Assembly: GCF_003345355.1 (NCBI RefSeq)
Contig: NZ_QQNB01000002.1
Location: 558,001-622,000, forward strand
From: Sphingomonas aracearum
GTDB taxonomy: Bacteria; Pseudomonadota; Alphaproteobacteria; Sphingomonadales; Sphingomonadaceae
DNA: 64,000 bases
Direction: 5' to 3'
Below are positions 22,808-31,659 of the stretch, piece after piece; within the stretch, counting starts at the first letter, position 1, and the number at the start of each line of letters is the position of its first letter. The notes under the pieces are model-generated. The model was given only the letters and a program-made list of their open reading frames with translations, searched no databases and was not told the DNA's origin. The position numbers and the translations under genes are program-made.

Positions 22808-22882
22808 GGCCCCTTCGTCTAGCGGTTAGGACGTCGCCCTCTCACGGCGAAAACACGAGTTCGATTCTCGTAGGGGTCACCA
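22808..22882 (+). tRNA. tRNA-Glu (CTC)
   Basis: The 75-nt sequence folds as a cloverleaf: acceptor GGCCCCT with AGGGGTC, T-arm ACGAG-TTCGATT-CTCGT, anticodon stem TCGCC/GGCGA around loop CTCTCAC with anticodon CTC, and an encoded 3' CCA. It matches the bacterial tRNA-Glu pattern (CTTCGTCTAG in the D-arm region). An accessory island begins directly downstream. Confidence 0.97.
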
Positions 22883-23627: not shown

Positions 23628-24626
23628 TCAGCGTGGCTCGGCCATGAACTGCTCTAGCCATCTGTTTCCTTGTAGAGATTCGCTAAATGGCCGCTCTGAT
23701 CCGATTACGGGCGAGCCGCCTCTGCCCCAAAGGCAATATTGAGAGAGATCGTCAAGCATCGAATCCAACCAATCGTGGCCATGATATTTGAATTCTCTAT
23801 GTCCTTCGATCTTGAAGTCATCTATCAGAATGGGTTTCTGCTCGCGGAAGAACAGGAAGTCGCTAGCATACACTTGCACTATATCGTTGAATTTCTCGAC
23901 CTCATCCGAGTTCAACCGTAACGTGACGAGACGCGGGTCGCTTGGGTGTGACATCGGGCGGAGAAATACTATCGACGCGGTGGGTAGAATGGGCAGGACC
24001 AACTTGCGGCCGCTATTTAGGCCATCCTTGGACGAAGGAAGGTTGTGGAAGAAGCCGTCTCCGGCAATGAATTCTCTTTCGTCACTGAAGAGGACAGCCC
24101 ACCTACCGCTTTCTTCCATGTACTTGCGGTAAGCATCATAAAGCCCACGCTGGTTCAGCGCGATAAGCGTCTTGTCCGCCCTAGTATCAGCAAGGCCGAA
24201 GTCGCTGCGGAACTGCTCCGTCGTCAACTTAATTACGTGACGTACACGCGGGGTGCGCGCCAGCAGCGAAGCTGTGACGCGAGCGAGCTGATGCTGCCTA
24301 GCTGGCGGTAAAGATTGGGCCGCTATTCGTTTCACCATTGGTTGATCCGCGGCCACGATCGGTGCTTCAAGCGTCGACAACCAACGCACGAGGTCAGACA
24401 TCTCGGCGTCTGGTTGGTTGAATATCGGTTCGAATGTGGAGTCCCAAGGCCCGCCCATTTTCATGTGATGTGCATTGGTAATGGCTCCGAATGCACCGGG
24501 CGGAGCTCGTCGCACCTCTCCGTTGGGCCGAATGACCGATACCATACCTTCGTGGTCTGCCCAGTGCTCGGCGAGGGTGCGCGGCCACCAGTGATGAAGC
24601 TCTGTCTTAAGCGGCCTTTTTTTCAT
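23628..24626 (-). CDS. Hypothetical protein, DUF4238-like
   Basis: The 332-residue protein begins MKKRPLKTELHHWWPRTLAE and contains PWDSTFEPIFNQPDAEMSDL, FLRPMSHPSDPRLV and FYD-poor, aromatic-rich middle parts. An N-terminal His/Trp block followed by a helical body and a mention-like FDEAxFEPIF-type segment recalls the DUF4238 family of element-borne proteins. This is a resemblance, not a firm assignment. Codon use and base composition are less GC-rich than the flanking genes, which suggests horizontal origin. In islands such genes are often defence-related, but there is no direct evidence here. Confidence 0.7.
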   Translation of the reverse strand: MKKRPLKTELHHWWPRTLAEHWADHEGMVSVIRPNGEVRRAPPGAFGAITNAHHMKMGGPWDSTFEPIFNQPDAEMSDLVRWLSTLEAPIVAADQPMVKRIAAQSLPPARQHQLARVTASLLARTPRVRHVIKLTTEQFRSDFGLADTRADKTLIALNQRGLYDAYRKYMEESGRWAVLFSDEREFIAGDGFFHNLPSSKDGLNSGRKLVLPILPTASIVFLRPMSHPSDPRLVTLRLNSDEVEKFNDIVQVYASDFLFFREQKPILIDDFKIEGHREFKYHGHDWLDSMLDDLSQYCLWGRGGSPVIGSERPFSESLQGNRWLEQFMAEPR

Positions 24627-24737
24627 TTGGCGTGAGCGCCCCCTTCTCCAGGCAAAGTGAGCAGACGTCAGTATGGGATTGCAAACGAAATATGCTATAT
24701 GGCGGTCGTGACAGGTTGTCTGTCAGAGGCATCTTCA

Positions 24738-25295
24738 ATGTATAACGCGGCAAAGGCGGCGCAGATTATCGCCTATCTCGCGCTGAAGACGCCAGCGCGG
24801 TCGATCAACATGCTGAAGGCGATCAAGCTGGTCTACATCAGCGATCGGGAGGCGCTCCGGCGCTTTGGTTACCCCATGCTGGACGAGCCACGCGTATCAA
24901 TGCGCCACGGGCCAGTTAATTCTTGGACCTATGACAACGCCAAGGGCGAGGTCGAGAACGCGAGCTGGGCCGCCGTGCTCGATGACCGCGAGAACCACCT
25001 CATCGGCGTGAAGCCGGACATTACCGCGAACGAGTTGGACGAGCTCAGCGACGCAGAGGTCGAGGTGCTCGATGAGGTCTGGGGCAAGTTCGGCGGCATG
25101 ACGCAGTGGCAGCTGGTCGAGTGGACCCACAACTCGGACAACGTGCCCGAGTGGGAAGACCCAGGCTTCAGCTCCGATCCGATACCGCTCGAACGTGTGT
25201 TGCGTGCGGTTGGGATCGGCAATGCCAACGAGCACGCTCGTTTTCTGAAAGATCAGGCGGCCGTCGGTCGGATCTTCGCTGAGCTAGCGAAGTAG
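24738..25295 (+). CDS. Panacea-domain protein (DUF4065/SocA-like), probable antitoxin
   Basis: The 185-residue protein starts MYNAAKAAQIIAYLALKTPA and has NMLKAIKLVYISDREALRRF, then PMLDEPRVSMRHGPVNSWTY. This is the Panacea fold (formerly DUF4065), named after SocA and GepA, used as an antitoxin domain with many different toxins. AGAGG at 24725-24729 supports the ATG at 24738; the frame is open from 24657. Six bases separate its stop from the next gene, so the two form a bicistronic module. The C-terminal half (from about residue 125) may be the toxin-contacting or regulatory part. Confidence 0.88.
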   Translation: MYNAAKAAQIIAYLALKTPARSINMLKAIKLVYISDREALRRFGYPMLDEPRVSMRHGPVNSWTYDNAKGEVENASWAAVLDDRENHLIGVKPDITANELDELSDAEVEVLDEVWGKFGGMTQWQLVEWTHNSDNVPEWEDPGFSSDPIPLERVLRAVGIGNANEHARFLKDQAAVGRIFAELAK

Positions 25296-25300
25296 GCCGC

Positions 25301-25705
25301 ATGCCAGTCGCGAAACGGGGCACGCTGCTGATTATCTCGGGGCCTGCGCACGATCCTGATCGCAAGCACCTGCATGTTGTCTGCAACGATCCGGACGAGC
25401 ACGGAAATGTGCTGGTGGTAGGCGTCTGCTCCGTCACCGCTGCGCCGCATGATGCCACCTGTATCTTGCAGGCGCACGAGCACGAATGGCTCCACCACCT
25501 CTCCTACGTCTTCTACGCCCGAGCCCGGGTCGTTTCCGAAGCGAGCTTAGATGCCGGGGTTGCTCAACGGCTCATGGAGGTGAGGGACGACGTGAACGGT
25601 CAGACGTTTCTACGAGTGAAGAACGGCATTTGTCGGTCGCCCTTCACGCCGCGCAAAGTGAAACAATATGCTGGTTGTGCGGACGAGCAGCCAGAGGCGG
25701 CTTAG
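25301..25705 (+). CDS. Partner of the Panacea gene, possible toxin with PemK-like fold
   Basis: The 134-residue protein begins MPVAKRGTLLIISGPAHDPD and has HLHVVCNDPDEHGNVLVVGV, DATCILQAHEHEWLHHLSYV and a basic end SPFTPRKVKQYAG. A small beta-barrel with an RG-TLLIxSG start, a central strand pair and a final basic segment recalls SH3-like PemK/MazF proteins. It directly follows the Panacea gene, the usual place for the cognate toxin. Function is inferred from position and fold impression only. Confidence 0.6.
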   Translation: MPVAKRGTLLIISGPAHDPDRKHLHVVCNDPDEHGNVLVVGVCSVTAAPHDATCILQAHEHEWLHHLSYVFYARARVVSEASLDAGVAQRLMEVRDDVNGQTFLRVKNGICRSPFTPRKVKQYAGCADEQPEAA

Positions 25706-25718
25706 CGCCGGCACACTG

Positions 25719-26303
25719 TTAGGACACAAACATCGCCTCCACTATTGCCTGCATCAACACGCCACGCGGCACTGGCACGCTGACCGATGTATAACCGCGG
25801 TTCTGCGCACGGCGCTGCCCATACAAGCCGATCCATTGCCGCCCATGCTGGCGCCAGGCACGCTGTAGAGCCGGCACTGGCAGCAACACGCAGGTGGCGG
25901 CTGGCGCATGGGCATAGGCGATGAAGTCGCAGGCCAACGGCTTCTGCACCCAGCCTGGCGAGCGCCGCGCTTCGTCCGACCAGCGTTCCAGCAGCACGTC
26001 CGGCCATTCCTCCGTCCTGATCTTCTCATCTACCGTGTAGGTGCGACCGCAAGCCAAGGTGAGCAGACGGTCGATGCCTGCCCGCTGTGCCCAGCCATCG
26101 TTCTCGATCGCCACCGCAGACATGAGCGTGGGGAAGGCCTGACGGTAGATGGGCAGCCACCAGTCTGGGCCATAGCTCTCTGCCAGGGCAAGGCTGTCCT
26201 CGAACCGGTGGACACGCGTGAAGCCCGCCGTTCGGGTGTGCCGAGCGACGGGCAGGTGGGGCGCTAGCCGGGCGGTGGCCGGCTCCCGGAGGGCGGTGCT
26301 AAT
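25719..26303 (-). CDS. Hypothetical protein with PD-(D/E)XK nuclease-like pattern, possible ATT start
   Basis: The reading frame continues well upstream of its first ATG (26123) with protein-like sequence (VHRFEDSLALAESYGPDWWL). It reaches no ATG, GTG or TTG before the 3' end of the preceding gene. An ATT at 26301-26303, 10 nt after AGGAG, would make a 194-residue protein overlapping that gene's TAG stop. Core motifs are AGIDRLLTL, TYTVDEKIR, EEWPDVLLERWSDEARR and GWVQKPLACDFIAYAH. The Asp...Asp-Glu-Lys spacing resembles the PD-(D/E)XK nuclease fold found in phages and islands. It is the last gene of the long minus-strand run. Confidence 0.6.
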   Translation of the reverse strand: MSTALREPATARLAPHLPVARHTRTAGFTRVHRFEDSLALAESYGPDWWLPIYRQAFPTLMSAVAIENDGWAQRAGIDRLLTLACGRTYTVDEKIRTEEWPDVLLERWSDEARRSPGWVQKPLACDFIAYAHAPAATCVLLPVPALQRAWRQHGRQWIGLYGQRRAQNRGYTSVSVPVPRGVLMQAIVEAMFVS

Positions 26304-26667
26304 CGTGGTGCTTCTCCTGATCGTCGCAAGAGCGACCTTGGCGAGTGGTGCCGAACAATCGCTGGCGAAATGCCGCCAGCCGGGCAGGATTGAGATAGCG
26401 GGACGGGTTTGCAGTCAGATTGTCGGCTTGCTGCTCCGCCCAGCGGATCGCCTCGGGGGCCGGCTTGTCTTGCCCTTGATCAAGGTCATGCGCTTCGAGG
26501 CAGGCGCGCGCCTGCGTCGCCCAGCCACCGAGCAGCATGTAGAGTTCCGATCGAACCCGGCTTGGGGGCAGCGCCCTCAGCCCGAGATGGATCAGCGCAC
26601 GGCCAATGGTGAAGCGCAGGTGCGACAGCCTGCTTTGGGAGCAGGATGTCACTTCGGGAACATCCAT
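26299..26667 (-). CDS. Hypothetical protein of the island operon
   Basis: The 122-residue protein begins MDVPEVTSCSQSRLSHLRFT and is helical with LYMLLGGWATQARACLEAHD. It is hydrophilic and has no recognised domain. The ATG at 26665-26667 lies inside the end of the preceding gene, and its own stop overlaps the possible ATT start of the next. This tight packing supports it being a real gene. Confidence 0.6.
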   Translation of the reverse strand: MDVPEVTSCSQSRLSHLRFTIGRALIHLGLRALPPSRVRSELYMLLGGWATQARACLEAHDLDQGQDKPAPEAIRWAEQQADNLTANPSRYLNPARLAAFRQRLFGTTRQGRSCDDQEKHHD

Positions 26668-27107
26668 CCGCCGGTTGGACTGCGAACCAGCCCCAGCTCG
26701 CGCGCGCGATGCTGACGGTTTGCATCCTCGACATTGATTGGCCCTGCCGATTGATCGACGCCGTAGATCGGCATCAGCGCGCCAGGCTCTTCCTCCTGCG
26801 TGCCCCACACGACTTCACCCTGTCGGTTCGGGACCGAGCCGCAGCCGTCGTCACCAGCGATGCAGCAATCTTCCTCTGCCTCAAGCTCTGGGTCGCCGTC
26901 GAGTTCGTCCATCCGGTCGATCAAGCGCTCTGTCAGTCGGGCAAGTACCGGACGCGGCAAGGAGGGGATTGCGGCAAAGAGGGCGGCCGGCGACAGCACG
27001 TCCGTGCTCCGCATCCAGCGGCCGGATCGGCGGCGGGGCCACGGGCGCGCGGTGGCTGCCGTCCGGGCGCCCAGAGCGGGAGCTTGGCCATCATGCGGTC
27101 TCCCCAC
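26649..27107 (-). CDS. Hypothetical protein of the island operon, acidic
   Basis: The frame of 152 codons has a clear protein core from Met32: MRSTDVLSPAALFAAIPSLP, RPVLARLTERLIDRMDELDG, then the acidic DPELEAEEDCC. The first 31 codons are Arg-rich and doubtful, so the true start may be at 27014. No domain is recognised, though the LPRPxLARLTERLID helix looks conserved. It overlaps both neighbours by 17-19 bp. Confidence 0.6.
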   Translation of the reverse strand: MGRPHDGQAPALGARTAATARPWPRRRSGRWMRSTDVLSPAALFAAIPSLPRPVLARLTERLIDRMDELDGDPELEAEEDCCIAGDDGCGSVPNRQGEVVWGTQEEEPGALMPIYGVDQSAGPINVEDANRQHRARELGLVRSPTGGWMFPK

Positions 27108-27330
27108 ATTGTCGGCGCTCGATCGCCGCCTTGATCGCCTCCTGCCGGTCCGCGCGGCCGATCAGGTGCGACATGACGACGGCAAGGTCCTCAGGGTCGC
27201 AGTCCTCCACCATAAAGGCGAGCCGCCGGCCGGACATCAGCGCGTAGCCGCCACCGATCTGCGTCAGCGCCGCCAGCCACGCGGCTGCATCGAAGCTGTC
27301 CTGCTCCTGGGCGGGATAGAGCGTCGCCAT
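27091..27330 (-). CDS. Small hypothetical protein of the island operon
   Basis: The 79-residue protein begins MATLYPAQEQDSFDAAAWLA and contains GGYALMSGRRLAFMVEDCDP. It looks like a compact alpha/beta protein with an acidic middle. The start at 27330 lies one base before the stop of the preceding gene, as expected for coupled translation. Function unknown. Confidence 0.6.
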   Translation of the reverse strand: MATLYPAQEQDSFDAAAWLAALTQIGGGYALMSGRRLAFMVEDCDPEDLAVVMSHLIGRADRQEAIKAAIERRQCGETA

Positions 27331-27331
27331 G

Positions 27332-27790
27332 TCAGCGGTCCTCCCGTGCACGGTGCTGAACCTTCAGCTCAGGCAGCCACCTGTTCGCCTGCCTGCCGAT
27401 GCAGACGAGGTCTTGATGCTGCGTGTCGGTGGGTTCTTCGTCCGGGCGGAACAGACTGGCGAGCCGCAGAACGCAGTTGTTGACGGCAACGCCGGTCATC
27501 TCGTGCAGGTCACGCAGATCCCGCTCGTTGTCGTCCTCGGTGGTAATCAGATCCTGCCATCGGCTCAGGGCCGAAAGGACGGCCAAGACATCATCGAAGT
27601 TCTGCGGCGGCTCGGCGATGATCGCGCAAGTCAGGGCGTTCGCCTGTCTGCACCAGACCCTGTTGGCCGGTGCCGCCTCGGAGCGGGTGAGGTCGTCGCG
27701 CTGCTCGGCCGCGTCAACGGCGCTCAGGCGCTTGTTGACCGTATCCAGCATCAGCGTGAGATTGCGGATCGGAGTGGTCGTCATGGTCAC
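27332..27790 (-). CDS. Hypothetical protein of the island operon
   Basis: The 152-residue, mostly helical protein starts MTMTTTPIRNLTLMLDTVNK and carries VLAVLSALSRWQDLITTEDD and DLHEMTGVAVNNCVLRLASL. No motif or family is recognised. Its ATG overlaps the stop of the preceding gene (ATGA), and it continues directly into the next gene. Confidence 0.65.
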   Translation of the reverse strand: MTMTTTPIRNLTLMLDTVNKRLSAVDAAEQRDDLTRSEAAPANRVWCRQANALTCAIIAEPPQNFDDVLAVLSALSRWQDLITTEDDNERDLRDLHEMTGVAVNNCVLRLASLFRPDEEPTDTQHQDLVCIGRQANRWLPELKVQHRAREDR

Positions 27791-28137
27791 GCCTCCCCCG
27801 CCAGCAGGCGCACGTCGGCGATCACTCGCTCCGCTTGGCCGTCATCATCGAGCATGCCGCTGTTGCGGAGCAGAGTGAGCTTCCACTCCAATGCCGCTAG
27901 GTCAGGTGCGGGGATCGCGAACAAGGCCCATTCCGCCTGTCCGACCGGGCCGATGCTGTCGGACCACTCCTCCCCGAGCTGGTCGGTCAACGTGCCATCA
28001 GCCTCCGCTTGCTTGTAGCGGGCATTAATGACGGCATCCCGTTCCTGTTCACGGCGGAGCGCAGCGGCTGCTTCCTCCCACGCCGTGCGATCGGACACTG
28101 CCTTCGGAGGGCAGGGCGCGATTGTCTGAAGCATCAT
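27787..28137 (-). CDS. Hypothetical protein of the island operon
   Basis: The 116-residue protein begins MMLQTIAPCPPKAVSDRTAW and has a charged coiled-coil-like helix EEAAAALRREQERDAVINAR, then PDLAALEWKLTLLRNSGMLD. It is acidic and soluble. The stop overlaps the next start codon. Function unknown. Confidence 0.65.
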   Translation of the reverse strand: MMLQTIAPCPPKAVSDRTAWEEAAAALRREQERDAVINARYKQAEADGTLTDQLGEEWSDSIGPVGQAEWALFAIPAPDLAALEWKLTLLRNSGMLDDDGQAERVIADVRLLAGEA

Positions 28138-28140
28138 GGC

Positions 28141-28557
28141 TCAGCCCTCCCCGCGCAAGTTGAGGATCGCGGCGAAGATCAGCTTTTCCTGCCAGTCCAG
28201 CTTCGCTCGTTCGCGAAGCAGCGCCGTCACATCGCCCTGAGCCACAGCCTCGCGGCGGGTGGCGTCGCAGTGGGACCACGCCACCCACAGCCGCAACTCG
28301 GCGGCGCGGGTGCTGGTGTCCGGGCTGTTGAGAATGGCGCTCTCAGCCGCGTCGATCCGATCCCAATACCGCTGCCCCACTTCGGGGTCGTCCAGCGAAT
28401 CAGGATCGGCATCGAACTCGGCATAGGCGCGGCGGCGAGCCTGCCAATGCGCTTCAAGGCTCGCGGCGTGACAAGGTGCGGCCGGTAAGATGCCGGCGGC
28501 GGCGAAAGCGGTCAGCGCGACTGCGCCAGCCAGCAGCTTGCGGCGGGTGGTCTGCAT
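28141..28557 (-). CDS. Exported hypothetical protein of the island operon, Tat-like signal
   Basis: The 138-residue protein starts MQTTRRKLLAGAVALTAFAA and has a signal peptide ending CHA near residue 31; TTRRKLLAG resembles a twin-arginine motif. The mature part is helical and rich in Trp and Asp (RYWDRIDAAESAILNSPDTS). It is the only clearly exported member of the run, so the operon product may act partly at the envelope. Family unknown. Confidence 0.65.
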   Translation of the reverse strand: MQTTRRKLLAGAVALTAFAAAGILPAAPCHAASLEAHWQARRRAYAEFDADPDSLDDPEVGQRYWDRIDAAESAILNSPDTSTRAAELRLWVAWSHCDATRREAVAQGDVTALLRERAKLDWQEKLIFAAILNLRGEG

Positions 28558-28559
28558 GG

Positions 28560-28802
28560 TCAGCCCCCCACCATTGCCGTTGCAGCGGCGTCGAGTGTGT
28601 CGACCTGCTCCTGGATGCGCCGGAGATGGTCATTCAGCATAGCCAGCAGCCATAGTCCGTGATTGTGCCGGTCCTGCGAAGCCGGGTCAGCCGGCAGGTC
28701 GCGAAACAGGTCTGCCGCGTTGATCGCGTGCACCGTGGCGAGCGCGCATGAGACGCCCTCCTGGAGGACCGCGGTGCGCTGAACGTCGTCAAGGTCTTGC
28801 AT
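28560..28802 (-). CDS. Small helical hypothetical protein of the island operon
   Basis: The 80-residue protein begins MQDLDDVQRTAVLQEGVSCA and contains LWLLAMLNDHLRRIQEQVDT. It is helical throughout with no recognised domain. It sits two bases from each neighbour, consistent with a polycistronic unit. Confidence 0.6.
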   Translation of the reverse strand: MQDLDDVQRTAVLQEGVSCALATVHAINAADLFRDLPADPASQDRHNHGLWLLAMLNDHLRRIQEQVDTLDAAATAMVGG

Positions 28803-28804
28803 GC

Positions 28805-29290
28805 TCAGCCCTCCAGCTCTGCTGTGCGGAAGCGGCGGCGGTTCCAGACTCGCATCGTGGCGGCCTTGAAGCGGTCGCCGATCGCCTCATGGTCCACGTT
28901 CACCTCGGTGGCTATGAAGTCGAACAGCGTGTCTATCGCAGTGGTGAGTGCGGCAGCCTCGTGCGGCGGCTCCTTGCCTGGCGTGTGCAGGCCGTGCGCG
29001 ACGGTGATGTGGTACTGCAAGATCAGCGCGTCGGTCCAGGTCGTCGGGACCTGGTAGAAGATCGCCGTCCGGAGTGCGTCGCCCTCGGCGTCGGCAGCCT
29101 CCATCGCTTCCTCATAGCGGGTCTCGCGCTGCCTGTCGGCGGGGCTGTCGCCTAGCTCCAGTTTCGCCTCGTCCAGCGCGTTGGCGGCGGACATCGCGGC
29201 TTCGTAGCGGGTGTGCATGACCCGGATTGGGGTCGCTGCGTCGATTGTGGCTGCGGCGTTCGCCGCGGTGGCGGGAAGCATAAGCATCAA
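28805..29290 (-). CDS. Hypothetical protein of the island operon
   Basis: The 161-residue protein begins MMLMLPATAANAAATIDAAT and is helical with ALDEAKLELGDSPADRQRET and YHITVAHGLHTPGKEPPHEA. The first 14 residues look weakly hydrophobic but not like a full signal peptide. The true start might be the second Met codon or later. No family recognised. Confidence 0.6.
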   Translation of the reverse strand: MMLMLPATAANAAATIDAATPIRVMHTRYEAAMSAANALDEAKLELGDSPADRQRETRYEEAMEAADAEGDALRTAIFYQVPTTWTDALILQYHITVAHGLHTPGKEPPHEAAALTTAIDTLFDFIATEVNVDHEAIGDRFKAATMRVWNRRRFRTAELEG

Positions 29291-29566
29291 TCAGCCCTCC
29301 CGCGCCATGAGGCAGCCGTTGGCCGGGTGCCGGGTGAACAGGCGTTCGCGACCGTCAGCGGCGATCACCGCTTCGATCGCACGCTGCTGGCGCGAGTTGG
29401 TGGCGCGGTGCTCGCCAGCGAGAGCGCGGGCATAGGCGCCGGGATTGCCTGTGCGCAGGTGCAGGCGCGCCATATCCACCGCACGTGCGGTGTTCTTGCT
29501 AAGACCGGAAGATGTGCGCGTGATCTTGGCCGAGCGCACGTCGGCCGTTAGGGTCATCATAGCCAT
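29291..29566 (-). CDS. First gene of the island minus-strand operon, hypothetical
   Basis: The 91-residue basic protein begins MAMMTLTADVRSAKITRTSS and contains NTARAVDMARLHLRTGNPGA. It may be an N-terminally basic, nucleic-acid-contacting protein, but no motif proves this. Its start follows CAGGAGGTGA, a strong ribosome site. It heads the run of ten genes reaching 25719, and its promoter should lie in 29567-29700 beside the divergent XRE gene. Confidence 0.65.
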   Translation of the reverse strand: MAMMTLTADVRSAKITRTSSGLSKNTARAVDMARLHLRTGNPGAYARALAGEHRATNSRQQRAIEAVIAADGRERLFTRHPANGCLMAREG

Positions 29567-29642
29567 TCACCTCCTGAATAGGTGTGTGGTCAGGCCGGAG
29601 AGGGAGATTGAGCCCTCCCCTTCCGGCCGTCTGCCGATATAG

Positions 29643-29688
29643 TTTGTATCAGTGCGTGTCAGGGTGTTCAAGTGGTTGCTGATATAAA
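29643..29688. promoter_or_regulatory. Operator-like inverted repeat between XRE gene and island operon
   Basis: The arms TTTGTATCAG (29643-29652) and CTGATATAAA (29679-29688) are reverse complements with one mismatch, separated by 26 nt. They lie in the only AT-rich divergent intergenic region of the island, ending 12 bp before the XRE start. This fits an operator bound by the XRE protein to control itself and the minus-strand operon. Confidence 0.5.
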
Positions 29689-29700
29689 TTGTCTCCGTCG

Positions 29701-29934
29701 ATGAAGATTGAACAATGCCGCGCGGCAAGAGCACTCCTCGGCTGGTCGTCGGCCGAACTGGCGCAGGCGGCAGGACTCGGCCCGGTGACGGTCAGGCGTT
29801 TCGAAAGCGGCCAAGCAGTCCAGCAGATCTCGATCGATACGATGCGCACTGCGCTTGAAGCTGCGGGAGTGGTGTTCATCCAGGACGGCGAGACATCCCG
29901 CCGGGCAGGCGTAGGCGTCCGCCTCGCTGATTAG
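29701..29934 (+). CDS. XRE-family helix-turn-helix regulator
   Basis: The 77-residue protein starts MKIEQCRAARALLGWSSAEL and is a single Cro/cI-type HTH: SSAELAQAAGLGPVTVRRFE followed by SGQAVQQISIDTMRTALEAA. The tail AGVVFIQDGE is the usual short dimer strand of stand-alone XRE proteins. It faces the island operon across a shared control region with an inverted repeat. It is probably the local repressor. Confidence 0.88.
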   Translation: MKIEQCRAARALLGWSSAELAQAAGLGPVTVRRFESGQAVQQISIDTMRTALEAAGVVFIQDGETSRRAGVGVRLAD

Positions 29935-29997: not shown

Positions 29998-30642
29998 ATG
30001 TCGCTCGATTCTCCTGCCCCGTCCTCGGTGACACCACCCGCCGCGCTGTCGCCCATTGAGGCGCGCCGGTTGTTGCAACGGTGTCGCGACGTCATCGTCG
30101 CCATGCGCGAGATTGGAGCGGCGATCGGCCGCGGCGATGTAGAGGTCTGGGCTCACTCGCGTGTCAAAATAATGGACAGCGGGGCTGAGCACCCCGGCAA
30201 CAATGCGCGGGTGCGTGGGAGCTACTGGCACCGGATCGAAGCCGAGGCCTTTGATCCATTCTGGTCCGGCGACGTCTTCACGCTGAAACGAGTGTCAGGC
30301 GACGACAGTTACCGCTTCGAGCAGATACGGTTCGACCGCGTGAGCTTGGAGTCCTTCGCTCGACAGCACGGGCTTGATGAGGCGAGACCCGCCTCCCCTC
30401 CCCTCCGCCGAGCTGGGCGGCCACGGGACAATGATGCTTGGTTTCGGTTCTGGTGCACGGTCGTCAGCATCGCTCAAGACGATCGGCTCAATGCACGAGA
30501 GCAGAGAAGCCAAGCCAACCTGCGCCGGAACATCATGGATCGGATGGGCGACAACCCAATGTCAGAAGAGACGATGAAGCCGGTCGTTCGCGATCTATGG
30601 CACGCTGTCATCGAGCCGGCAGAGGCAATTAACACCTATTAA
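29998..30642 (+). CDS. Hypothetical protein, 214 aa
   Basis: The protein begins with a Pro/Ser-rich tail, then a helix IEARRLLQRCRDVIVAMREI, a segment FDPFWSGDVFTLKRVSG that looks beta, and a helical end with Arg-rich EQRSQANLRRNIMDRMGDNP. No family is recognised. It follows the XRE gene by 63 bp on the same strand and may be in the same unit. Confidence 0.6.
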   Translation: MSLDSPAPSSVTPPAALSPIEARRLLQRCRDVIVAMREIGAAIGRGDVEVWAHSRVKIMDSGAEHPGNNARVRGSYWHRIEAEAFDPFWSGDVFTLKRVSGDDSYRFEQIRFDRVSLESFARQHGLDEARPASPPLRRAGRPRDNDAWFRFWCTVVSIAQDDRLNAREQRSQANLRRNIMDRMGDNPMSEETMKPVVRDLWHAVIEPAEAINTY

Positions 30643-30735: not shown

Positions 30736-30900
30736 ATGCAGAAGTTGCACACGATCAATGACACCTGCCGTATCCTCTCGGTATCTCGCGCAACCGTCTA
30801 TCGCCTGATCTCGGACCAGCAGTTGCTGACCGTGAAGGTGCGGGGCCGCACGCTGGTGCGTGCCACCTGCATCGACACAATCGCGGGAGTTGCCGCGTGA
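30736..30900 (+). CDS. Excisionase-like helix-turn-helix protein (54 aa)
   Basis: The 54-residue gene starting at 30736 reads MQKLHTINDTCRILSVSRAT, then VYRLISDQQLLTVKVRGRTL. This is a MerR-like winged HTH as in phage excisionases and AlpA-type regulators (PF12728 layout: a start-helix, SRATVYRLI recognition helix, and KVRGRTLVR wing). GGAGA at 30724-30728 supports the start. Its GTGA end overlaps the next gene. Such proteins control excision or element transcription. The gene is short and easy to miss. Confidence 0.8.
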   Translation: MQKLHTINDTCRILSVSRATVYRLISDQQLLTVKVRGRTLVRATCIDTIAGVAA

Positions 30901-31317: not shown

Positions 31318-31581
31318 CTACTTTGAGACTGCCATATTCACCGCCTTGGGCACCGGCCTGGGGCGGTGAATTTCTACGTGGCACCGCTGGCAGAGAGCGA
31401 GCATGTAAAGCCACTCGAAGCGCAGGGGATGCCCCTTGGCCAGCGTATGATGCGCCTCGATCGAGGGACACCCGCACACCTGGCAGTCTGGGTGTGCATC
31501 CAGGAACAGACCATTCCTTTTCTGGCGAGAGTTGGGCTTGGAAGTGCGCGGCTTGGCGCGCCATTGACGGGTATTACTCAT
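31318..31581 (-). CDS. HNH endonuclease-like protein
   Basis: The 87-residue protein has CQVCGCPSIEAHHTLAKG followed by LCQRCHVEIH, the two Cys pairs and His residues of an HNH nuclease. The first 25 residues are basic. AGGAGG just before the ATG at 31579-31581 is a near-perfect ribosome site; the frame continues upstream to 31995 only as a shadow. HNH genes of this size are common in phages and islands, often beside packaging or mobility genes. Confidence 0.85.
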   Translation of the reverse strand: MSNTRQWRAKPRTSKPNSRQKRNGLFLDAHPDCQVCGCPSIEAHHTLAKGHPLRFEWLYMLALCQRCHVEIHRPRPVPKAVNMAVSK

Positions 31582-31659
31582 GTTTTTCCTCCTTTCATGA
31601 AACCCGCTTTCCTTCCTCACTTCCTCTCTGGCCCACCGGCCCGGCTTCTTCGCGCCCCG

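Follow-up and report, generated by a model that had tools for sequence, protein, structure and literature searches.

Sphingomonas aracearum carries a tightly packed run of ten minus-strand genes, none of them of a nameable family, in the 64,000-nucleotide stretch of contig NZ_QQNB01000002.1 that was analyzed here (the window). What is such an operon for, and how is it controlled? The answer that we favor, and hold to be moderately probable, is that it is an accessory operon of phage-satellite-type integrative elements of sphingomonads, gated by a repressor together with a RepX-type antisense RNA, and that the copy in the window is a remnant.

The operon and its predicted products

The ten genes run from position 29566 down to 25719, with gaps of 1-3 nt or overlaps of at most 19 nt, as described in a first-pass annotation of this DNA. 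That annotation could assign no family to the products, apart from a nuclease-like pattern in the last, and comparison of the ten proteins with Pfam and PHROGs gave no match at a useful level; weak Pfam matches (Arg_repressor_C on g02, ImpE on g05) fell under the cut-off and were dropped. PHROG structural families gave zero matches for all ten, so these are not ordinary prophage structural genes. Purifying selection on g01, g07, and g10 (dN/dS about 0.08-0.12 for g10 and 0.25-0.3 for g07) and the recurrence of these three genes in identical order among related loci place the operon beyond chance. A search for the gene order in other genomes found the genes co-conserved, not scattered, in about 25 Sphingomonas relatives, where the frame that is kept consists of the XRE gene, the leader, g01 or a substitute and, at the far end, g07-g08-g10, with reshuffled interior genes.

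The first gene, g01 (29291..29566; minus strand, like all genes of the operon), is conserved, and unrelated first genes replace it in some relatives. The variable interior comprises g02 (28805..29287, its start more likely the ATG at 29287), with relatives in loci L013 and L036; g03 (28560..28802), with relatives in L014, L017, L024, L026, and L028; g04 (28141..28557); g05 (27787..28137), of the helical type "PAPD..AL..KL"; and g06 (27332..27784), with relatives in L020, L021, and L034. The Tat-like signal noted earlier on one product belongs to g04, which begins MQTTRRKLLAGAVALTAFAAAGILPAA and is predicted to be exported; Tat-type signals were found in 14 of the 159 operon genes of the relatives. 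Further downstream, g08 (26649..27107, GTG start) encodes an acidic protein with the motif "(I/L)DRMDE(L/I)DGD" (cluster c2, in 26 loci), and g09 (26299..26667) is a small ORF with no homologue among the related loci.

Two conserved products have informative models. The 79-aa protein encoded by g07 (27091..27330, start more likely ATG 27330; cluster c3, in 26 loci) has a predicted fold (AF2 model, pLDDT 82) like that of the beta-hairpin docking domains of NRPS assembly lines. The top eight structural matches are all such domains, and Kj12C NDD (6ewu) aligns over 62 residues with Z 7.1. However, g07 lies outside any NRPS context, and the likeness is limited to 11% identity and a Z below 8.

The last gene, g10 (25719..26309), is the most conserved of the operon. 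It had been credited with a PD-(D/E)XK-like pattern. Its residues D80...D94-E95-K96 proved to be conserved: among 34 sequences D94 and K96 are invariant and D80 and E95 exceed 90%. The model fold agrees, since nearly all of its top structural matches are PD-(D/E)XK nucleases, at Z values from 5.8, the highest, to 3.7 in a model of modest confidence (pLDDT 66). By fold and D...DEK pattern, g10 is therefore a putative PD-(D/E)XK nuclease resembling the Eco15I N-domain, Hjc, and PvuII; unlike these, it has no sequence family match and its activity is only predicted. Protein conservation extends to about 26309, whereas the conserved N-terminal part holds no ATG, GTG, or TTG and the first ATG stands at 26123. 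Thus, g10 needs an ATT start (at about 26303) or has lost its start codon.

The leader, the putative antisense RNA and the repressor

A structured, antisense-type leader precedes g01 (29567..29635, minus strand). It was missed by the first-pass annotation and is the best evidence on control of the operon. It consists of a GC-rich hairpin 1, the linker CTGACCACA and hairpin 2 (CACCT ATTCAGG AGGTG), which holds the Shine-Dalgarno sequence of g01, so that the two hairpins cover the ribosome site of this gene. Covariation bears the structure out, with two-sided changes at 12 of the 14 pairs and 86 compensated cells vs. 23 in shuffles (0 of 500), and hairpin 2 is found in 21 of 23 loci where 0.8 would be expected. 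This structure comes from a covariance model; RNAalifold gave hairpin 1 only, because the MAFFT alignment on which it ran had misplaced hairpin 2. A reading of hairpin 1 as an attenuator was dropped, as no T-run follows it.

Antisense control of the RepX/FinP type is known from a few plasmids. The operon leader is like the RepX/repA leader of IncQ R1162 and RSF1010 (RF00043) in having two hairpins over the ribosome site, the linker CTRACCA, the ending ATGGCT and, on the antisense strand at the same place within the gene, a -10-like TA. A search with our leader model recovers the repA leader of IncQ1 (38.8 bits, E 2.4e-10), which Rfam labels R1162-like antisense RNA (85 bits), and Rfam finds the operon leaders on the same strand, at 32.4 bits for the window leader and 24.6-44.8 bits for those of relatives, all below the RF00043 gathering threshold of 55. 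RepX itself is an antisense RNA that covers the ribosome site of repA, and its mutation raises copy number (PMC8136791). A literature search on RepX-like RNAs in Alphaproteobacteria turned up work on RSF1010 and otherwise only unrelated papers.

A putative promoter for a RepX-like antisense RNA lies inside g01 on the plus strand (29526..29553), with TTGGCC (29526-29531) and TTAGGG (29548-29553) spaced by 16 nt. Its -10-like TA, which falls outside the leader model, keeps a fixed position inside gene 1 in 42 of 43 and in 19 of 20 loci, against 0 of 14 control genes. The arrangement differs from that of IncQ in several respects. The gene downstream is g01 or another unknown gene and not the helicase gene repA, so that a hypervariable accessory operon is controlled; a transcriptional repressor is added; and the antisense RNA is only predicted here. 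No FinO/ProQ protein was found in the S. aracearum genome, and stabilization of the antisense RNA, if needed, would therefore differ from that in RSF1010. The antisense strand also matches the FinP structure of the IncF FinP/traJ system (RF00107) at 24.5 bits in the window and 39.1 bits in L098, both below the gathering score of 45, but neither traJ nor FinO accompanies it. Weak antisense-strand matches to symR and PtaRNA1 in Rfam were taken as structural look-alikes.

The operon promoter deduced from the sequence (29643..29671, minus strand) has a -35 TTGAAC (29666-29671), a 17-nt spacer and a -10 TACAAA (29643-29648), and its TTG...TGATAC is conserved in relatives. The earlier proposal of a divergent XRE gene with an inverted-repeat operator is sound: the regulator (29689/29701..29934, plus strand) matches Pfam HTH_3 with E 1e-7, and TATCAG (29647-29652) and CTGATA (29679-29684) flank the operon -35 (operator 29647..29684). 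Between leader operons, repressor type (XRE or RHH) and operator swap together while the RNA stays. The leader occurs in 81 of 295 Sphingomonas genomes and in 42 of 96 sampled genera of the family, is scattered in other Alphaproteobacteria, and also heads similar operons without g07 and g10.

The window remnant and its intact relatives

The island lies beside a tRNA-Glu (CTC) gene (22808..22882, plus strand; ARAGORN), the insertion site. In S. glacialis E6.1 (L012), flank synteny places a related element at the same tRNA-Glu site, there with a 52-bp att repeat. Next to the operon in the window lie cargo genes for a DUF4238-like protein (23628..24626, minus strand; E 6.8e-6, narrowly missing the Pfam cut-off), a SocA/Panacea antitoxin-domain protein (24657..25295, plus strand; Pfam E 3e-20) and the partner of this Panacea protein (25301..25705, plus strand), a pair that recurs in L016 (tblastn E 2e-11, adjoining the L016 Panacea homologue). 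On the other side are an ORF with no family assigned (29998..30642, plus strand), an HTH_17 (AlpA/Xis-like) protein of a kind common to intact elements (30736..30900, plus strand) and, at the approximate right end, an HNH-type gene (31318..31593, minus strand), which in relatives has an HNH homologue close to the XRE gene (55% identity, E 1e-27, for the HNH gene of element E303). There is no integrase near the window operon, and an att search within the window found the tRNA-Glu end repeated only as chance 12-mers, with no second att copy. The window copy is therefore a remnant, on an island whose borders are defined only in part. A search next to aroG-tRNA in 19 relatives with 1.5 kb of sequence beyond it did not find the right flank.

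Intact relatives are elements of 24-39 kb with integrase, primase, and helicase. Seven of ten elements are bounded by att repeats that match exactly over 17-52 bp, in most cases at the 3' end of a tRNA gene; at 16 g10 places the integrase lies 14-30 kb upstream on the same strand, and in 14 loci a tRNA lies 2-8 kb downstream. Defense or toxin-antitoxin cargo is found beside g10, with IetA/IetS, Schlafen AlbA_2, HipA_2 and DUF3037, PIN, and Panacea proteins. Capsid, portal, and terminase are absent from the best 25 families of a PHROGs screen of elements E310, E312, E302, and E305b. The first-pass view of a repressed, co-expressed system on an island thus holds, and its suggestion of a phage-satellite or defense function came close, because the relatives lie next to defense cargo on integrase/primase elements that are bounded by att repeats and show no capsid or terminase among the families listed; it falls short in that the window copy is a remnant.

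Some relatives have a Mob_Pre-like gene, which makes conjugative mobilization possible. The operon could itself be a mobilization or establishment module, aiding the replication or transfer of a new element as traJ does under FinP and repA under RepX. The only characterized relatives of the leader do control replication or transfer (PMC8136791), and in other loci leaders precede short operons ending in an integrase-like gene (L120, L123, L125-L127, L152, L158, L159) or have replication or relaxase-like genes in their vicinity (L150, L153). We nevertheless find this rather unlikely, since no operon protein resembles a replication or transfer protein in Pfam or PHROGs, primase and helicase lie elsewhere in the elements, Tat signals and rapid exchange of interior genes are not usual in a module of this kind, and the window has kept the operon whole but lost the integrase and replication genes.

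The sphingomonad elements, as putative satellites, resemble P4-like satellites and the P2/P4 defense hotspots (PMC9122126), which are likewise integrase-primase elements at tRNA genes with no capsid set and with variable defense cargo at one fixed place. No known P4 proteins were seen in the sphingomonad elements, however, and these have in addition the hypervariable leader-headed operon and their own tape-measure or ejection proteins. Tape-measure genes in E302 and E305b recall the PLE satellites of Vibrio cholerae, which have their own tape measure protein (PMC12987554), but gene content and host are unrelated. No specific report on phage satellites of Sphingomonas turned up in a literature search.

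Tape-measure or DNA-ejection proteins, which lie upstream in many elements, would also suit a lysogenic-conversion (moron) operon of a defective prophage, serving host fitness only, for instance by envelope superinfection exclusion through exported proteins. The Tat signals, the orientation toward the att end and the retention in a remnant agree with it. We consider it improbable, because g10 had no match in 50,697 phage GenBank records and g07 none in 2.9 million IMG/VR contigs, the families listed in the four elements lack capsid and terminase, and most interior proteins are without signals. For g10, the IMG/VR scan gave a single short match (L039), and only 3 plasmid records contain the gene.

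Proposed mechanism and its meaning

In a satellite-type accessory operon, the XRE repressor would block transcription, and pairing of the leader with an antisense RNA some 75 nt long would stop translation, as with RepX and repA; the operon would therefore be nearly silent in a resident element. It would be released on induction, or when a copy reaches a naive cell. Its products would then act for a short time, most likely in competition with further phages or elements: the helical proteins, exported or cytosolic, would vary by target, g07 would be a peptide-docking adaptor, and g10 would cut DNA. The biochemical role is probably competition with phages or other elements. That the operon is instead a type I-like toxin-antitoxin or addiction module that antisense RNA silences, the DNA-damaging toxin being g10, is slightly less probable again than a moron operon, for although double repression, co-expression with a putative nuclease and the presence of the antisense antitoxin families PtaRNA1 and SymR among the weak Rfam matches would suit it, g10 comes last in a long operon and is missing from several leader operons (L117, L122), the first genes are not small hydrophobic peptides, and the operon contains no antitoxin candidate.

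A leader that matches the IncQ copy-number switch suggests that mobile elements silence costly genes by a shared means. More tentatively, an antisense gate of the RepX type, separated from the control of plasmid copy number, could be a general lock on fast-exchanged operons, common to alphaproteobacterial mobile elements, in which the RNA lock stays and the repressor (XRE or RHH, along with the operator of each) and the genes under lock are exchanged. If so, the antisense lock would make the operon fire on arrival in a naive cell, since only a resident copy supplies the antisense RNA and the repressor, and would give an element its own incompatibility or immunity group. Found before hypervariable operons in about a quarter of Sphingomonas genomes, the RepX-type leader would be a control device in wide use among mobile elements of chromosomes. 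The leader model and the antisense -10 provide a sequence handle to locate such operons without knowing their proteins, and the lock would explain, in a way open to testing, why expression of unknown small-protein operons of mobile elements is rarely seen. The analysis further brings to light a family of satellite-like elements with defense cargo among hosts in which elements of this kind have hardly been described.

The operon, its frame and its predicted folds

Ten abutting or overlapping minus-strand ORFs (g01 first, g10 last) run from 29566 to 25719 opposite a divergent XRE gene (29689-29934, +), and the -35 of the good operon promoter, TTGAAC-17-TACAAA, is flanked by the inverted repeat TATCAG/CTGATA. 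This layout, operator included, had been described in the first-pass annotation and was recovered here, as were one product with a Tat-type signal (g04) and a general lack of nameable families: Pfam and PHROGs searches named none for any of the ten products. The operon-bearing DNA is of lower GC; the operon lies between tRNA-Glu(CTC) (22808-22882), which adjoins DUF4238-type and Panacea-type cargo, and an ECF-type sigma gene (32262).

The PD-(D/E)XK-like pattern previously seen in the last gene agrees with the AF2 model of g10 (pLDDT 66). Nearly all of its matches to PDB structures are PD-(D/E)XK nucleases (Eco15I, Z 5.8; Hjc, 5.0; PvuII, 4.8), and in its family D94 and K96 are invariant and D80 and E95 conserved in >90%. 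In the window, the conserved N-terminal part of the g10 frame (up to 26299-26309) is without a canonical start codon, the first ATG being at 26123; g10 may start at ATT or have lost its start in the remnant. The g07 model (pLDDT 82) has NRPS beta-hairpin docking domains as its top eight PDB matches, at Z 7.1 to 4.4 against 2.8 for the ninth, which suggests a peptide-docking adaptor.

Gene calling and clustering of related loci revealed a constant frame: divergent XRE gene, first gene, changing interior, then g07, g08 and g10. Gene order, proposed earlier as something to look for in other genomes, recurs in Sphingomonas for this frame. The first gene is of the g01 type or of the unrelated c6 or c48 types (protein clusters), and the interior mixes Tat proteins with helical proteins of the 'PAPD..AL..KL' kind, number and order differing between loci. 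The g10 product was found at 27 Sphingomonas loci in the genome contigs searched. Among sampled genomes of the family it was present in 9 of 298, and among those of the order in 10 of 396; g07 by itself occurs in 38 of 295 genus genomes. dN/dS is ~0.08-0.12 for g10, ~0.25-0.3 for g07 and ~0.15-0.45 for g01, so these three are real genes under constraint.

Carrier elements and cargo

Association with integrases and with defence genes, which the first-pass annotation left to be checked, was found in relatives for both. Integrases lie on the operon's strand, 14-30 kb upstream, at 16 g10 places, and 14 loci have a convergent tRNA gene (Glu, Leu, Thr, Ala, Arg) 2-8 kb past g10. Ten elements (E298, E300, E302, E303, E305a/b, E306, E307, E310, E312; L060-L079) were examined over their whole length. 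Seven have an exact repeat of 17-52 bp. One copy is at the distal, operon-side end of the element and, where there is a tRNA, sits at its 3' end; the other lies 0.1-0.5 kb upstream of the integrase. The elements contain integrase, HTH_17, CHC2/Toprim primase and DUF3987/AAA_25 helicase, together with either a siphovirus-type tape measure protein or DNA-ejection proteins of podovirus type (phrog_598, phrog_5880); capsid, portal and terminase were absent from the PHROG and Pfam families listed. It seems, then, that every element carries a genome-delivery protein of its own. Recent work has described satellites that encode their own tape measure protein (PMC12987554). Different operon-bearing elements occupy the same few tRNA sites across species (L013/L018, L020/L025/L027/L036, L017/L028). 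The window copy has neither an integrase nor a second att copy that we could find and is therefore a remnant, in which operon, regulator and cargo are kept.

Defence-type genes lie next to g10 in relatives. The variable cargo between g10 and the tRNA (IetA/IetS, Schlafen AlbA_2, HipA_2 plus DUF3037, PIN, DUF3800 and Panacea proteins) invites comparison with the defence hotspots of P2/P4 (PMC9122126). At one locus (L023:9636-13021) subtilase and AAA proteins, probably an IetA/IetS-type defence pair, stand right behind g10 in the cargo slot adjoining tRNA-Thr.

A two-hairpin leader RNA

Alignment of the intervals between the XRE gene and gene 1 (g01 or its substitute) revealed two hairpins ahead of gene 1 (29567-29635, minus strand, in the window). 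Pairing is maintained in hairpin 1 (30 compensated cells vs 8.7 in shuffles, 0/500). Hairpin 2 has a stem of 5 bp and a loop of 5-7 nt, and it contains or abuts the Shine-Dalgarno sequence. Its pairing is perfect in 21 of 23 loci, with 0.8 expected, and six different stems occur among them. A model-based alignment of 27 leaders has two-sided changes in 12 of 14 pairs and 86 compensated cells vs 23.3; this alignment was fitted to the structure, whereas the two preceding tests were not. Sliding the partners abolishes its covariation signal. In loci left out of its building (L012, L013, L034, L007 and others), the leader model found one leader each, at the operon start.

Model searches placed the leader in 81 of 295 Sphingomonas genomes, twice the g07-carrying count, in 57 of 298 family genomes across 42 of 96 genera, and in 21 of 289 class genomes. 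At the additional loci the leader precedes operons of like gene types without g07 or g10, or short ones whose last gene is integrase-like (called by eye from sequence). Of 20 such loci, 7 have a divergent XRE gene; at L118 and L150 a ribbon-helix-helix-type ORF, read by eye, takes its place. Operators differ correspondingly in XRE-less loci, those among L112-L127 having other inverted repeats around a TTGAC -35. The RNA is the constant part of leader-headed loci, while regulators, operators and genes vary. One class genome (G847) has six copies (L143-L148), each followed by a MADSEN.../MVDSEN...-type start and small unknown ORFs. A reduced, AT-rich alphaproteobacterial genome of 1.2 Mb (G1011) has two (L151, L154) before a 224-aa gene, and at L153 a TraA/MobA-like relaxase ORF (985 aa) follows within 2 kb.

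Likeness to RepX

RepX is an antisense RNA of 74-75 nt over the repA ribosome site of IncQ plasmids; mutations in RepX raise copy number (PMC8136791). The window leader matches RF00043 (R1162-like antisense RNA) over its full length, under the gathering score, and its opposite strand matches FinP and PtaRNA1; most of 19 relatives have like matches. We do not claim RF00043 membership, given that score and a target other than repA. A model built from sphingomonad leaders only matches the IncQ1 repA leader (38.8 bits, E 2.4e-10), itself RF00043 at 85 bits, and an IncQ2 leader at 21 bits. A search of this genome gave no FinO/ProQ protein. We propose that this system works like RepX.

Leaders read as RepX-like would require an antisense promoter within gene 1. 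Of 43 loci, 42 have a TA at sense position 14 or 15, counted from the start's GGCT and outside the covariance model (other scanned positions, 0-2 of 43). The TA is also present in 19 of the 20 distant leaders, and IncQ1 has it at position 15. Relatedness makes the loci less than fully independent, and the counts should not be taken as probabilities. Controls had the position-locked TA in 0 of 14 leaderless ATGGCT-start genes and in 57 of 820 ATG-start genes overall, leader genes included. In the window, the antisense promoter-like signal is TTGGCC-16-TTAGGG (29526-29553, +). We infer that an antisense RNA would be made from such signals and repress the operon, that entry into a naive cell would release it, and that the operon may have a role in competition.
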